Source of the DNA: an uncultured Paracoccaceae bacterium
GTDB lineage: Bacteria > Pseudomonadota > Alphaproteobacteria > Rhodobacterales > Rhodobacteraceae
DNA length: 64,000 bases
Direction of reading: 5' to 3'
Assembly: GCA_937138255.1 (NCBI GenBank)
Contig: CAKZOU010000034.1
Span: 1 to 64,000, forward strand
Shown here: in pieces, positions 49,348-54,085 of the stretch
Layout: each line of letters starts with the position of its first letter
Position numbering within the stretch: the stretch's first letter is position 1
Position numbers and translations under genes: made by a program
Notes under the pieces: generated by a model
Databases searched by the model: none
Told to the model about the DNA's origin: nothing
What the model saw: the letters and a program-made list of their open reading frames with translations, nothing else

Positions 49348-49946
49348 AGAGCGTGAGCGATATTGCCGAACTGGAGGCCTTCTATGGCCTGCCGGTCCCG
49401 GCCTCGCTTGACAAAGTCCGCACCACGTTGACTGCCGCCTATCGCAAATGGATCGAAGCCAGCCGTTTTATGGTCATCTCGACAGTGGGGCCAGAAGGCA
49501 CCGATGCGAGCCCGCGCGGCGATGGTGGGCCGGTGGCCCGGATCGTGGACGACAAGACCATCTGGATCCCCGACTGGCTAGGCAACAACCGCATAGACAC
49601 CCTGCGCAACATCGTCCGCGATGGTCGGGTAAGCCTGATGTTTCTGGTGCGCGGGTCGGGCAATGTTGTGCGGGTGAACGGCCGCGCGCGCGTGACTGTC
49701 GAACCGGGCGCGACAGGCCAGTTTGTCCAAAAAGGCAGGCATCCCCGCTCTGTTGTCATTGTCGAGGTAGAGGAGGCCTACTTCCAATGCGCCAAGGCGA
49801 TCCTGCGATCCGGCCTTTGGACAGGCAACGACGATAGCCCGCTTGTCCCGACAGCGGGCGAGTTCCTGCGCGAGGTTCGGTCGGACTTTGACGCCGAGAC
49901 CTATGACGCCAGCTATGCCGAGCGCGCAAAAGACAAGTTCTGGTAG
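49344..49946 (+). CDS. pyridoxamine 5'-phosphate oxidase-family flavoprotein
   Basis: 200 aa with the split-barrel FMN-binding fold: FMVISTVGPEGTDASPRGDGG, WIPDWLGNNRIDTLRNIV and a C-terminal ECAK-like segment (YFQCAKAILRSGLW). This matches the MSMEG_1061 type of PPOX protein rather than PdxH; its substrate is unknown. GTG start overlaps plsC by four bases. It is convergent with accA. Confidence 0.85.
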   Translation: MKSVSDIAELEAFYGLPVPASLDKVRTTLTAAYRKWIEASRFMVISTVGPEGTDASPRGDGGPVARIVDDKTIWIPDWLGNNRIDTLRNIVRDGRVSLMFLVRGSGNVVRVNGRARVTVEPGATGQFVQKGRHPRSVVIVEVEEAYFQCAKAILRSGLWTGNDDSPLVPTAGEFLREVRSDFDAETYDASYAERAKDKFW

Positions 49947-49961
49947 GGTAGGGCGCCCGAT

Positions 49962-50924
49962 CTAGGCGGCAAGACCCTTGGAGCCAAGCGCGAGATACTT
50001 CTTGCGCCGCCCGTCGCGGATTTCCTTGCCTTTGCGGCCCTTGAATTCGGCCAGCATCGCGCGGATCGCGTCGCCCACGGCGGCGATGGTGGCCTCCTTG
50101 TTGCGGTGCGCTCCGCCCACGGGCTCGGGGATGATCCGGTCGCAGACGCCCAGTTCGGCAAGGTTCTGGGCGGTCAGGCGCAGCGCTTCGGCGGCTTCGC
50201 GCATCTTGTCGGCGTCTTTCCATAGGATCGAGGCGCAGCCCTCGGGCGAGATCACCGAATAGATCGAATGTTCAAGCATCGCCACGCGGTTGGCGGTGGC
50301 AAAGGCCACGGCGCCGCCCGAGCCGCCCTCGCCGATGATGACGCTGATCAGCGGCACCTTCACCTGAAGGCATTTCTCGGTCGAACGGGCGATGGCTTCG
50401 GACTGGCCGCGCTCTTCGGCGCCCTTGCCGGGATAGGCGCCGGGCGTATCGACAAGGGTAACGATCGGGATGCCGAACTTGTCGGCCAATTCCATCAGGC
50501 GGATCGCCTTGCGATAGCCCTCGGGGCGGGCCATGCCGAAATTGTGCTCGATCCGGGTTTTCGTATCGAAACCCTTCTCGTGGCCGATCACCATGACAGG
50601 CGTGCCGTCAAGCCGCGCGAGGCCGCCCATCACGGCATGATCGTCGGCGAAATTGCGGTCGCCGGCGAGCGGCGTGTATTCGGTAAAGAGCGTGTCGATA
50701 TAGTCACGGCAATGCGGCCGGTCGGGGTGGCGGGCCACCTGACATTTCCGCCAGGCCGAAAGATCGGCATAAAGGCTCTTGAGCAGATCGGCTGCCTTCT
50801 TGTCGAGCGCCGCCGCCTCTTTCTCGATATCCATCTCCTCGTTGGCCCGCGCCATGGCGCGCAGCTCTTCGGCCTTGCCTTCGATTTCCGCGAGAGGCTT
50901 TTCGAATTCGAGGTAGTTGGTCAT
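49962..50924 (-). CDS. accA: acetyl-CoA carboxylase carboxyltransferase subunit alpha
   Basis: 320-aa subunit of the heterotetrameric carboxyltransferase that forms malonyl-CoA from carboxybiotin. Recognisable blocks are the N-terminal [35 protein letters not shown] and [20 protein letters not shown]. Length is normal. accD is not adjacent. ATG 50924 is supported by a strong family N-terminus. Confidence 0.95.
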
Positions 50925-50993
50925 CCGCTCACTCCACTGGGATCATGCCGATATAAGGGGTGGGAGCCGGCGAATGCAACTCGCGATCCGCCC

Positions 50994-52022
50994 CTAGCGC
51001 GCGCCCCATGTGTCGCTGAGCCTGTAGCCTTCCGGCCAGGGGTCGGACGGATCGAGCATGTGTTGATGCGTTCCTGTGATCCACGCCCGCCCCGAGATTT
51101 CGGGCCGGATCGCGGGGCGGTCGCCCACTTGGGCAGTGCCGAGGATCCTTCCTTTGAATTGGGAGTTGATCAGCGACGTCGCCGTTAGCGTGTCGCCAAC
51201 GCCCATAAGGCCGCGTGCAGCCAGCACAGCCATGCGTGCCGAAAGCGCTGTGCCGGTGGGCGAGCGGTCAACCTTGCCGGGCCGGATCGCCACGGCGGAA
51301 CGGGCCTCAAAGGCGCCATTCCCGCCTGACAGAGGGCCGGCGAAGAGACAGAAGGAAAAATGCCGCCAGTCCGGGTTTTCGGGGTGATCAAAGCCCAGCG
51401 CTTCGTTTGCCGCGGCGGTGATCCGCACGCCAAGGCGGGCGATATCATGCGCTTCGTCCGGCACGAGCGACAGGCCGAGAGCCTCTGCATCGACGATCAC
51501 GAAACTGTCGCCGCCATAGGCGGTATCGACGGTCAGGGTTCCAAGCCCGTCAACCTCGAGCGGGGCATCGAGGCGGGCGGCAAAGCTTGGCAGGTTCTCG
51601 ACATAGATGCGCTCGGCCTTGCCGTTGCGGCAGTCGGCACGGACCTGCACAAGCCCGCCGGGCGCTTCGAGGATCATCCGTGTCTCGGGCTCGGTCATCT
51701 TGATGATGCCCGAGTCGAGCAGAACCGTCGCCACGCAGATCGAGTTGGATCCCGACATCGGCGGCGTATCTTCGGGCTCCATGATGATGAAGGCGGCGTC
51801 GGCACGCGGATCTTTTGGCGGGACGAGAAGGTTGACGTGCCGGAACACGCCGCCCCGAGGTTCGTTCAGAACGAAATTTCGCAAAGTTCCGTCGCGGGCG
51901 ATCCAGCGGCTTTGTTCCCAGAGGGTCTCGCCCGGCGGCGGCGCGACACCGCCGACGATCACGTCGCCCACCTCGCCTTCGGCATGTGCGGAAATCACAT
52001 GGATTGTCTTTGTCGTGCGCAT
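50994..52022 (-). CDS. proline-racemase-family protein with Ser/Thr at the catalytic positions
   Basis: 342 aa, the fold of proline racemase, 4-hydroxyproline epimerase and trans-3-hydroxy-L-proline dehydratase. The first catalytic block, MCGHxS in racemases, reads MSGSNSI (Ser90), and the second, DRSPCGTG, reads DRSPTGTA (Thr256). Racemases/epimerases use Cys/Cys (or Ser/Cys) and t3Hyp dehydratase uses Cys/Thr; a Ser/Thr pair is unusual and rules out simple racemase chemistry. No hydroxyproline transport or catabolic genes are adjacent. It lies downstream of mcl1 on the same strand (65-bp gap). Confidence 0.8.
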
Positions 52023-52087
52023 GGCGGCCTCAGGGGTTGGGGCATTCGCCTTTGCCTAGCATGGGGACGCGCGGCAAAGCTATCGCG

Positions 52088-53047
52088 CTATTGGCCCGCG
52101 ATCAGCTCGGCTTGGCGCACGATCACCTCGGCCTGCCGCATCGAGGCGATGTCGATCAGCTTGCCCTTGTAGGTCGTCGCACCTGCGCCGGCCTTCTTCG
52201 CCTCTTCCATCGCCGCAAGGATCGCGCGGGCGTCGGCCACGGCCTCGTCCGACGGGGTAAAGACCTCGTTGGCAAGCGCCACCTGCTTGGGGTGGATCGC
52301 CCATTTGCCAACCATGCCGAGCGTGGCCGAGCGCAGCGCTTGGGCGCGGAAGCCTTCGTCATCCGAGAAATCGCCGAACGGGCCATCGACCGGCAAAATG
52401 CCGTGGGTCCGGCAGGCGGCGACGATGGCGGTCTGGGCCCAGTGCCAGGGGTCGGACCAGTATTTCTGCCCCTCGCGGAGCATATAGTAGTTCTCTTGCG
52501 TTCCGCCGATGCCGGTTGTCGCCATGCCCATGGAGGCCGCGAAATCGGCCGCACCCAGGCTCATCGCCTGAAGGCGGGGCGAGGCGGCGGCGATTTCCTC
52601 GACATGGGCGATGCCGGCGGCGCTTTCGATGATGACCTCGAAACTGATCGGCTTGGTGCGGCCCTTGGCGCGTTCGACTGCCGTCACCAGCGCATCGACG
52701 GCATAGAGATCGGCGGCGCAGCCGACCTTGGGGATCATGATCTGATCGAGCCGATCCGAGGCGTTTTCCAGAAGATCGACGACATCGCGATACCAATAGG
52801 GCGTATCAAGGCCGTTGATCCGCACCGAGAGCGTCTTGCGGCCCCAGTCGATATCGCCGATCGCCTCGATGATGTTCTTGCGGGCCTGCGCCTTGTCGTC
52901 GGGGGCGACCGAATCCTCGAGATCGAGGTTGATCACATCCGCCGCACTCGCCGCCATCTTCTCGAAAATCGCCGGGCGCGAGCCGGGGCCGAACAGCTGG
53001 CAGCGGTTGGGGCGGGCGACGGGGGCGGGCTGGATGCGGAAGGACAT
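52088..53047 (-). CDS. mcl1: L-malyl-CoA/beta-methylmalyl-CoA lyase
   Basis: 319-aa HpcH/HpaI-type lyase cleaving malyl-CoA to glyoxylate plus acetyl-CoA and beta-methylmalyl-CoA to glyoxylate plus propionyl-CoA, in the ethylmalonyl-CoA and related C2 pathways. The sequence (MSFRIQPAPVARPNRCQLFG, INLDLEDSVAPDDKAQAR, ESAAGIAHVEEIA, GKWAIHPKQVALANE) is close to my memory of Rhodobacter sphaeroides Mcl1. Metal-binding Glu/Asp of these motifs are present. A TGC-rich inverted-repeat region lies upstream. Confidence 0.93.
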   Translation of the reverse strand: MSFRIQPAPVARPNRCQLFGPGSRPAIFEKMAASAADVINLDLEDSVAPDDKAQARKNIIEAIGDIDWGRKTLSVRINGLDTPYWYRDVVDLLENASDRLDQIMIPKVGCAADLYAVDALVTAVERAKGRTKPISFEVIIESAAGIAHVEEIAAASPRLQAMSLGAADFAASMGMATTGIGGTQENYYMLREGQKYWSDPWHWAQTAIVAACRTHGILPVDGPFGDFSDDEGFRAQALRSATLGMVGKWAIHPKQVALANEVFTPSDEAVADARAILAAMEEAKKAGAGATTYKGKLIDIASMRQAEVIVRQAELIAGQ

Positions 53048-53105
53048 GGTTCGCCTTGTAATCTTGTTGCGCGGATGGGTCGGGGTTTTGGTAGATTATT
53101 GCGTC

Positions 53106-53138
53106 CAATGCTGCAAGTGCGAATTTGCAGATGCAGCA
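53106..53138. promoter_or_regulatory. TGC-rich operator-like element upstream of mcl1
   Basis: CAATGCTGCAAGTGCGAA (53106-53123) matches the element at 9759-9776 upstream of phaA in 17 of 18 bases. It is embedded in nested inverted repeats: TGCTGCA (53109-53115) with TGCAGCA (53132-53138), and CTGCAA (53111-53116) with TTGCAG (53125-53130). It lies 59-91 bp before the mcl1 start and about 84-116 bp before the divergent transaminase gene. A TGC-motif regulator such as PhaR, or a RamB-like regulator, is inferred. Confidence 0.55.
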
Positions 53139-53221
53139 AAGCGCAAAGAGTCGCGTCTCAGACTTCTTGACGCCCACTGACACACAGGTCAGAGCTTTGG
53201 CAACTCTTGGAGGACCTCAAA

Positions 53222-54085
53222 ATGACCCGCACCGTCTATGTCAACGGAAGCTATCTGCCGGAAGCCGAAGCCACCGTTTCGATCTTTGATCGCGGGTTCC
53301 TGATGGCGGACGGGGTTTATGAGGTGACGTCGGTTCTGGGCGGCAAGCTGATTGATTTCGGCGGCCACGCCGCGCGGCTCGAGCGCTCGCTTTCCGAACT
53401 CGACATGGCCTGCCCCGTGACGATGGAGGCTCTTCTCGAGATCCACCGCGAGCTCGTGCGCCTCAACAACATCGACGAGGGCCTGATCTATCTCCAGATC
53501 ACCCGCGGCAATCCCGGGGACCGTGATTTCGCCTTCCCCGATCCGGACCAAACGCCCTCTACCATCGTTCTCTTCACCCAAGCCAAGCCCGGCCTTGCCG
53601 ACAACCCGACCGCGAAAAAGGGCCTCAAGGTCATCAGCATCGACGATATCCGCTGGGGTCGCCGCGATATCAAAACCGTTCAGCTTCTCTACCCTTCCAT
53701 GGGCAAGATGATGGCCAAGAAGGCGGGCGTGGATGACGCCTGGTTTGTCGAGGATGGCAAGGTCACCGAGGGCACCTCGAACAACGCCTATATCGTCAAG
53801 GGCGGCAAGATCATCACCCGCGATCTTTCTAGCGATATCCTGCATGGCATTACCCGCGCCGCCGTTCTCCGTTTCGCCCGCGAGGCGCAGATGGAGATTG
53901 AGGAGCGGGCCTTCACCGTGGCCGAGGCGCAGGGCGCGGACGAGGCCTTCATCACCTCGGCCAGCGCCTTTGTCTTGCCGGTGGTCGAGATCGACGGCGT
54001 GGCATTGGGCGGTGGAGCCCCCGGCCCTGTCGCCACCCGCCTGCGCGAGATCTATCTCGACGAAAGCCGCAAAGCGGCGGTCTAG
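53222..54085 (+). CDS. class IV aminotransferase, D-amino-acid transaminase-like
   Basis: 287-aa PLP enzyme of fold type IV. It has IFDRGFLMADGVYEVTSV at the N-terminus and the PLP-Lys in IKTVQLLYPS (position of DAAT Lys145), plus TEGTSNNAYIV and HGITRAAVL. The NVL part of the DAAT motif reads YPSM. D-alanine transaminase is the likeliest role; branched-chain or lyase (PabC) activities share the fold. ATG 53222 has GGAGG 9 bp upstream; a TTG at 53207 is less likely. Confidence 0.83.
   Translation: MTRTVYVNGSYLPEAEATVSIFDRGFLMADGVYEVTSVLGGKLIDFGGHAARLERSLSELDMACPVTMEALLEIHRELVRLNNIDEGLIYLQITRGNPGDRDFAFPDPDQTPSTIVLFTQAKPGLADNPTAKKGLKVISIDDIRWGRRDIKTVQLLYPSMGKMMAKKAGVDDAWFVEDGKVTEGTSNNAYIVKGGKIITRDLSSDILHGITRAAVLRFAREAQMEIEERAFTVAEAQGADEAFITSASAFVLPVVEIDGVALGGGAPGPVATRLREIYLDESRKAAV

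Follow-up and report, generated by a model that had tools for sequence, protein, structure and literature searches.

Enzymes of the proline racemase family with serine at the first and threonine at the second catalytic position have been described in two studies (PMC4113996; PMC4364671), excerpts of which were available to us. According to the excerpted text of the first (eLife 2014; PMC4113996), the cluster-3 trans-3-hydroxyproline dehydratase (t3HypD) B9K4G4 has a catalytic Ser90 that is positioned by Asn93, with Thr256 in a non-catalytic orientation, and its dehydration of trans-3-hydroxyproline (t3Hyp) was seen by NMR. The same excerpts describe cluster 3 as mixed in function and, in part, promiscuous between 4-hydroxyproline epimerase (4HypE) and t3HypD activities. 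They label B9K4G4 inconsistently: it is an orange-cluster 4HypE in one sentence, and a cluster-3 t3HypD in the section on t3HypD and in two legends, that of the figure and that of the NMR data. We take it to be a cluster-3 t3HypD, and we tie it to the crystal structure 4K7G on the basis of matching organism, ligand and residue numbering. In the available part of the second study (2015; PMC4364671), Ser-Thr proteins are called T3LHypD type II. The type I enzymes (human 7qpo; Thermococcus 6r76) are named for the same reaction and have the same fold, but they carry a Cys-Thr pair and, in that part of the text, other ligand-binding sites; they are 25–31% identical to the protein described here.

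That protein is encoded in a 64,000-nucleotide stretch of DNA (the window) from contig CAKZOU010000034.1 of an uncultured Paracoccaceae bacterium. A preliminary description of the window listed Cys/Cys, Ser/Cys and Cys/Thr as the known subgroups of the family, a list that is out of date because the Ser/Thr group is described in the excerpts of both papers. On the sequence comparisons presented below, the window gene very probably encodes an ordinary Ser/Thr-type (type II) 3-hydroxyproline dehydratase that acts by single-serine dehydration.

A Ser/Thr-type member of the proline racemase family

The gene lies on the minus strand at positions 50994–52022 (ATG at 52022, stop codon ending at 50994) and encodes a 342-aa Pro_racemase-family protein that matches PF05544 along the full profile (1–325 of 325; 440 bits, cut-off 27). 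Read on the plus strand, the same interval contains two stops. The replacement of both catalytic cysteines by Ser and Thr, and of the motif His by Ser, was described correctly at the outset: the first motif, MSGSNSIC, has Ser90, with Ser92 where the His is expected, and the second motif carries Thr256, all checked at the codon level. Cysteine at both catalytic positions, as in a Cys/Cys racemase or 4HypE, is absent, and the protein has instead the three features of a type II enzyme, namely Ser first (Ser90), Thr second (Thr256) and a Ser-positioning Asn (Asn93). By alignment with 4K7G, Ser90 (codon at 51753–51755, minus strand) is the proposed single catalytic base/acid; Asn93 (51744–51746, minus strand) is the counterpart of the residue that positions the catalytic Ser in that structure; Asp252 (51267–51269, minus strand) is the counterpart of the prolyl-nitrogen ligand Asp232 of Q4KGU2; and Thr256 (51255–51257, minus strand) matches a residue described as non-catalytic in 4K7G.

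A scan of genome contigs found at least 548 relatives, of which the best 80 loci, 77–95% identical to the window protein, were used. Ser90 and Thr256 are present in all 80 of these best matches, and dN/dS (Nei-Gojobori) of the window gene against its counterparts in L002, L003 and L004 is 0.06, 0.07 and 0.05, respectively. Because all 80 have the pair and dN/dS is this low, we rule out a sequencing or frame error as the source of the Ser/Thr pair; the gene is under purifying selection. One of the 80, L049, has an internal stop within the first motif. The loss of both cysteines would point to a catalytically dead homologue or a regulator if racemases alone were the yardstick, and the preliminary description had named a regulator as one possibility. 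We reject this reading as extremely unlikely, since the same pair occurs in an assayed, ligand-bound enzyme (PMC4113996, available text), selection on the gene is purifying, and 91 positions are invariant over 113 Ser/Thr alignment rows (near-copies counted), the motif residues Ser90, Asn93, Asp252 and Thr256 among them.

Relationship to characterised enzymes

The window protein scores 639.2 bits against the NCBIfam t3HypD equivalog NF047722 (cut-off 550), and falls below the cut-offs of the five other NCBIfam models listed for it; it scores 229 bits against the proline racemase model (cut-off 556) and 204 bits against the 4-hydroxyproline epimerase model (cut-off 376). NF047722 is also passed by 4K8L (635 bits), which PMC4113996 places with 4HypE structures, and by a Ser/Cys relative (562 bits). 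The model therefore does not separate dehydratase from epimerase, and we dropped it as proof, by itself, of dehydratase specificity.

The best solved sequence match is 4K7G (E 3.5e-160; 70.4% identity), a cluster-3 protein of the eLife 2014 study that has the same fold and shares Ser90, Ser92, Asn93, Asp252 and Thr256 in identical numbering. A close homologue with the same residue pair, 4K7G/B9K4G4, has thus already been characterised, as the accessible part of PMC4113996 reports. The two proteins differ in the second motif, which has Gly259-Cys260 in 4K7G and Ala259-Leu260 in the window protein. Ala occupies position 259 in 107 of the 113 Ser/Thr rows, so in this motif the subgroup of the window protein is unlike that of the crystal structure. 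Cys at the second catalytic position goes with Gly at 259 in 22 of 23 Ser/Cys rows. Despite these strong-looking counts we make no claim of coupling between Thr256 and Ala259, as the tree gives three to four independent pairs (sign-test p = 1). An annotated relative, 83% identical to the window protein, has the same second motif; its function name is an annotation.

The alignment was assembled from 186 places found, leaving out six that were flagged for internal stops, as well as the copy of the window gene in L001; of 72 matches in one of the searches for relatives, 30 were at loci already collected, 40 were added, and two were set aside as short or partial. Its 183 rows include the window protein and a duplicate of it in L093, three PDB sequences, near-copies and loci fetched twice, and counts taken from it are therefore of rows rather than species. 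Rows of fewer than 280 residues, and rows that matched one already kept at 84% identity or more, were then removed, and from the 81 left a quick maximum-likelihood tree was made with three trait columns removed (SH-aLRT support, no bootstrap). With the residues marked at both positions, the window protein groups with the characterised 4K7G: it falls within a 27-row clade that is entirely Ser/Thr (SH-aLRT 95), nested in a 43-row set (SH-aLRT 95) that holds 4K7G and 4K8L and comprises 40 Ser/Thr and three Ser/Cys rows. Cys/Cys rows and the remaining Ser/Cys groups lie outside this set. The Ser/Thr label is not a clean clade; it needs four changes on the tree, three of them forced by starred branches, which indicates that the second position has switched between Thr and Cys. 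Two Cys/Cys rows, a Cys/Gly row and the Ser/Cys row L172 have long end branches, and three deep joins are possibly false, so the deep branching is untrustworthy; the placement of the window protein is independent of it.

Two further observations concern other members of the family. Ser/Cys proteins in or beside the Ser/Thr clade (L140, L144 and L150, and also L163 and L172, all placed in the tree except L144) have GTG, not GTA, after the second position. A Pro_racemase-family protein in L186 has a Cys/Gly pair (MCGHGTIA, DRSPGGTG) and a long branch.

An AlphaFold2 model of the window protein, made with 22 sequences, has a mean pLDDT of 88.7 and a pTM of 0.89. In a Foldseek search with this model 4k7g came first (E 2.1e-57; TM 0.95), and the top matches were structures of the family. 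AlphaFold2 was trained on PDB entries and 4K7G was released in 2013, so this agreement is not independent evidence.

The main doubt concerns specificity. The window protein might act chiefly, or additionally, as a 4-hydroxyproline (or 3-hydroxyproline) 2-epimerase, in which Thr256, a water or another group would serve as the second acid. The Ochrobactrum anthropi protein 4K8L has the same residue pair and is 68.6% identical to the window protein, but it is placed with 4HypE structures in the available part of PMC4113996, so its specificity may differ, and its PDB title (putative 4-hydroxyproline epimerase/3-hydroxyproline dehydratase) gives both activities. The heterogeneity of cluster 3 points the same way, as does the epimerisation of 3Hyp by D0B556, which counts here as a member of cluster 3 irrespective of its residue pair (PMC4113996, as excerpted). 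For these reasons the predicted substrate specificity is less certain than the family membership. On the other side, 4K7G, which falls in the same tree set as the window protein, dehydrates t3Hyp (PMC4113996, same excerpts). Moreover, a separate Cys/Cys 4HypE is encoded nearby at 28 of the best 80 of at least 548 loci, a minority; there, the Ser/Thr copy could serve another reaction. The window gene is the sole Pro_racemase member in its own genome, and the lack of a second one does not, taken alone, speak against an epimerase. We regard an epimerase as unlikely, and a dehydratase as the much better reading. The earlier proposal that a Ser/Thr pair may mark a different reaction holds for the best-studied homologue, and we found no evidence for its regulator part. 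Its companion, that such a pair cannot support two-base racemisation, accords with that homologue doing another reaction, but may be too strong given the promiscuity for 4HypE reported for the cluster (PMC4113996, as far as available).

The gene lies between mcl1 and accA

Unlike the gene for 4K7G, the window gene sits between mcl1 and accA. An mcl1-like malyl-CoA lyase gene (52088–53047, minus strand) lies 65 bp upstream and accA (49962–50924, minus strand) 69 bp downstream; we treat both as context, with mcl1 outside the proposed pathway. The preliminary description had placed the gene next to mcl1 and away from hydroxyproline-catabolic genes. The first point is borne out by the best solved match of the adjoining gene product, malyl-CoA lyase 4l9y (E 3.1e-188), and the second is true of those genes around it that we tested (mcl1, accA, a PPOX-type flavoprotein and a D-amino-acid transaminase), among which we found no pyrroline-2-carboxylate reductase, transporter or hydroxyproline gene; such genes are the usual but not a strictly defining context. 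The annotated 83%-identical relative differs in this respect, being clustered with an amino-acid ABC transporter, an aldehyde dehydrogenase, a 4-hydroxyproline epimerase and an Ldh-family gene.

The order mcl1 – gene – accA, on a single strand with gaps of about 70 bp, is found in the window and in L002 (Marivivens), L003 (Rhodobacteraceae) and L004 (Marivivens). The gene is present in four of the five genomes of its genus, its own included, and absent from G003 (93% complete); three of these genomes are possibly identical with the records of L002–L004. A survey of accA in the family gave 60 matches, of which 30 loci were examined. Mcl was found within the 1.5-kb flank of accA in 14 of the 30 (own locus included), with the two matches 83–254 bp apart in six of the 14, and was not seen in the other 16, of which two are truncated. 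In seven other genomes of the family (L096, L104, L105, L106, L110, L112 and L118) the mcl1–accA interval holds mutually different ORFs (longest ORF per interval), so the site seems prone to insertions. On the simplest view, the window gene entered the space between mcl1 and accA within its lineage, which looks like a relocation. A scan of 49900–53300 gave one promoter-like site (0.6 expected) and five terminator-like sites (3.0 expected).

The conserved order, single strand and short gaps in these four loci could instead reflect recruitment of the enzyme, in this lineage, to another reaction tied to mcl1 and accA in acyl-CoA or hydroxy-acid metabolism. The motif residues of the window protein are, however, those of its clade, and the same interval takes up different ORFs in other genomes of the family; we judge recruitment very unlikely. 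Equally improbable, in our view, is that the relocated dehydratase does not use free trans-3-hydroxy-L-proline but another compound, such as a 3-hydroxy imino acid bearing a methyl or other substituent, that it is co-expressed with mcl1 and accA for this reason, and that Ala259 reshapes the conserved second-motif loop.

Hydroxyproline genes around relatives and in the genome

We searched the best 80 of the at least 548 loci for hydroxyproline-cluster markers taken from L193, L194 and L006 (E up to 1e-20 over at least 40% of the query; at least 50% identity for 4HypE). At least one marker is present at 55 of the 80 and at least three at 44; among the 57 of these loci with full flanks, 43 have at least one. 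AcnX occurs at 50 of the 80 best loci, a DAAO-like oxidase at 44, an ABC substrate-binding protein and an ABC permease at 40 each, Ldh2 at 21 (its source, L006, included), aldehyde dehydrogenase at 20 and OCD at one, alongside the Cys/Cys 4HypE counted above. The remaining 25 of the 80 best loci have none of the markers, and the three closest relatives of the window gene are among them. Annotated examples with a hydroxyproline context come from S. meliloti, Loktanella and Sulfitobacter; Pseudosulfitobacter and Phaeobacter homologues have other surroundings.

Separately, six of 20 neighbour ORFs searched, at loci picked by eye among 22 listed marker-free ones, encode an Oxidored_FMN protein whose end lies upstream of the Ser/Thr gene by no more than 50 bp. 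The protein is 684–766 aa in five of these loci (L043, L049, L058, L076 and L079) and 403 aa in L066, and an annotated case occurs in L194. Oxidored_FMN and the Ser/Thr gene possibly form a second operon type. Oxidored_FMN-type flavoproteins include N-methylproline demethylases, and a methylated source of 3-hydroxyproline would therefore be suggested.

The genome that carries the window is 95.7% complete and encodes three OCD-family proteins. One is an ornithine cyclodeaminase over its cut-off, and the second is BhcD, over its cut-off beside BhcC. The third, L084, has pyrroline/piperideine-2-carboxylate reductase as its best NCBIfam match, below cut-off (248 bits; cut-off 322), and is 50–51% identical to the OCD genes near the orthologues in L071 and L194. 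The sole Ldh_2 protein, L085, is below every listed NCBIfam cut-off, with L-sulfolactate dehydrogenase as its best name (148.5 vs 500 bits), and is 36–42% identical to Ldh2 genes near orthologues. A Pro_dh match (L197) lies in a 1170-aa frame, and AcnX gave a sub-threshold match only. With candidate reductases and Pro_dh in the genome, a minimal route that would convert trans-3-hydroxyproline to proline by way of pyrroline-2-carboxylate is plausible, with its genes unlinked. As a separate observation, bhcC and bhcD are adjacent (L083), both above their NCBIfam cut-offs; they belong to the beta-hydroxyaspartate cycle, by which glyoxylate is assimilated.

Discussion

If the mechanism carries over from 4K7G, Ser90, held by Asn93, would take the alpha proton and then, as the conjugate acid, help the 3-hydroxyl to leave from the same face in a syn elimination. 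Asp252 and Ser92 would be located at the position that binds the prolyl nitrogen, and Thr256, opposite Ser90, would be a spectator and not act as a base. The product, delta-2-pyrroline-2-carboxylate, would tautomerise to delta-1-pyrroline-2-carboxylate, which an unlinked candidate reductase of the OCD or Ldh2 family may convert to L-proline, the substrate for proline dehydrogenase.

We conclude that the Ser/Thr pair is already characterised and that the window protein is an ordinary orthologue at an unusual address. The Ser/Cys proteins of L140, L144 and L150 offer a natural series for studying a switch between dehydratase and epimerase. Ser/Thr homologues of proline racemase are a partly characterised dehydratase group and not orphans, which corrects a plausible but outdated reading; the local detail that this locus adds is the solitary position of the gene between mcl1 and accA in close relatives.
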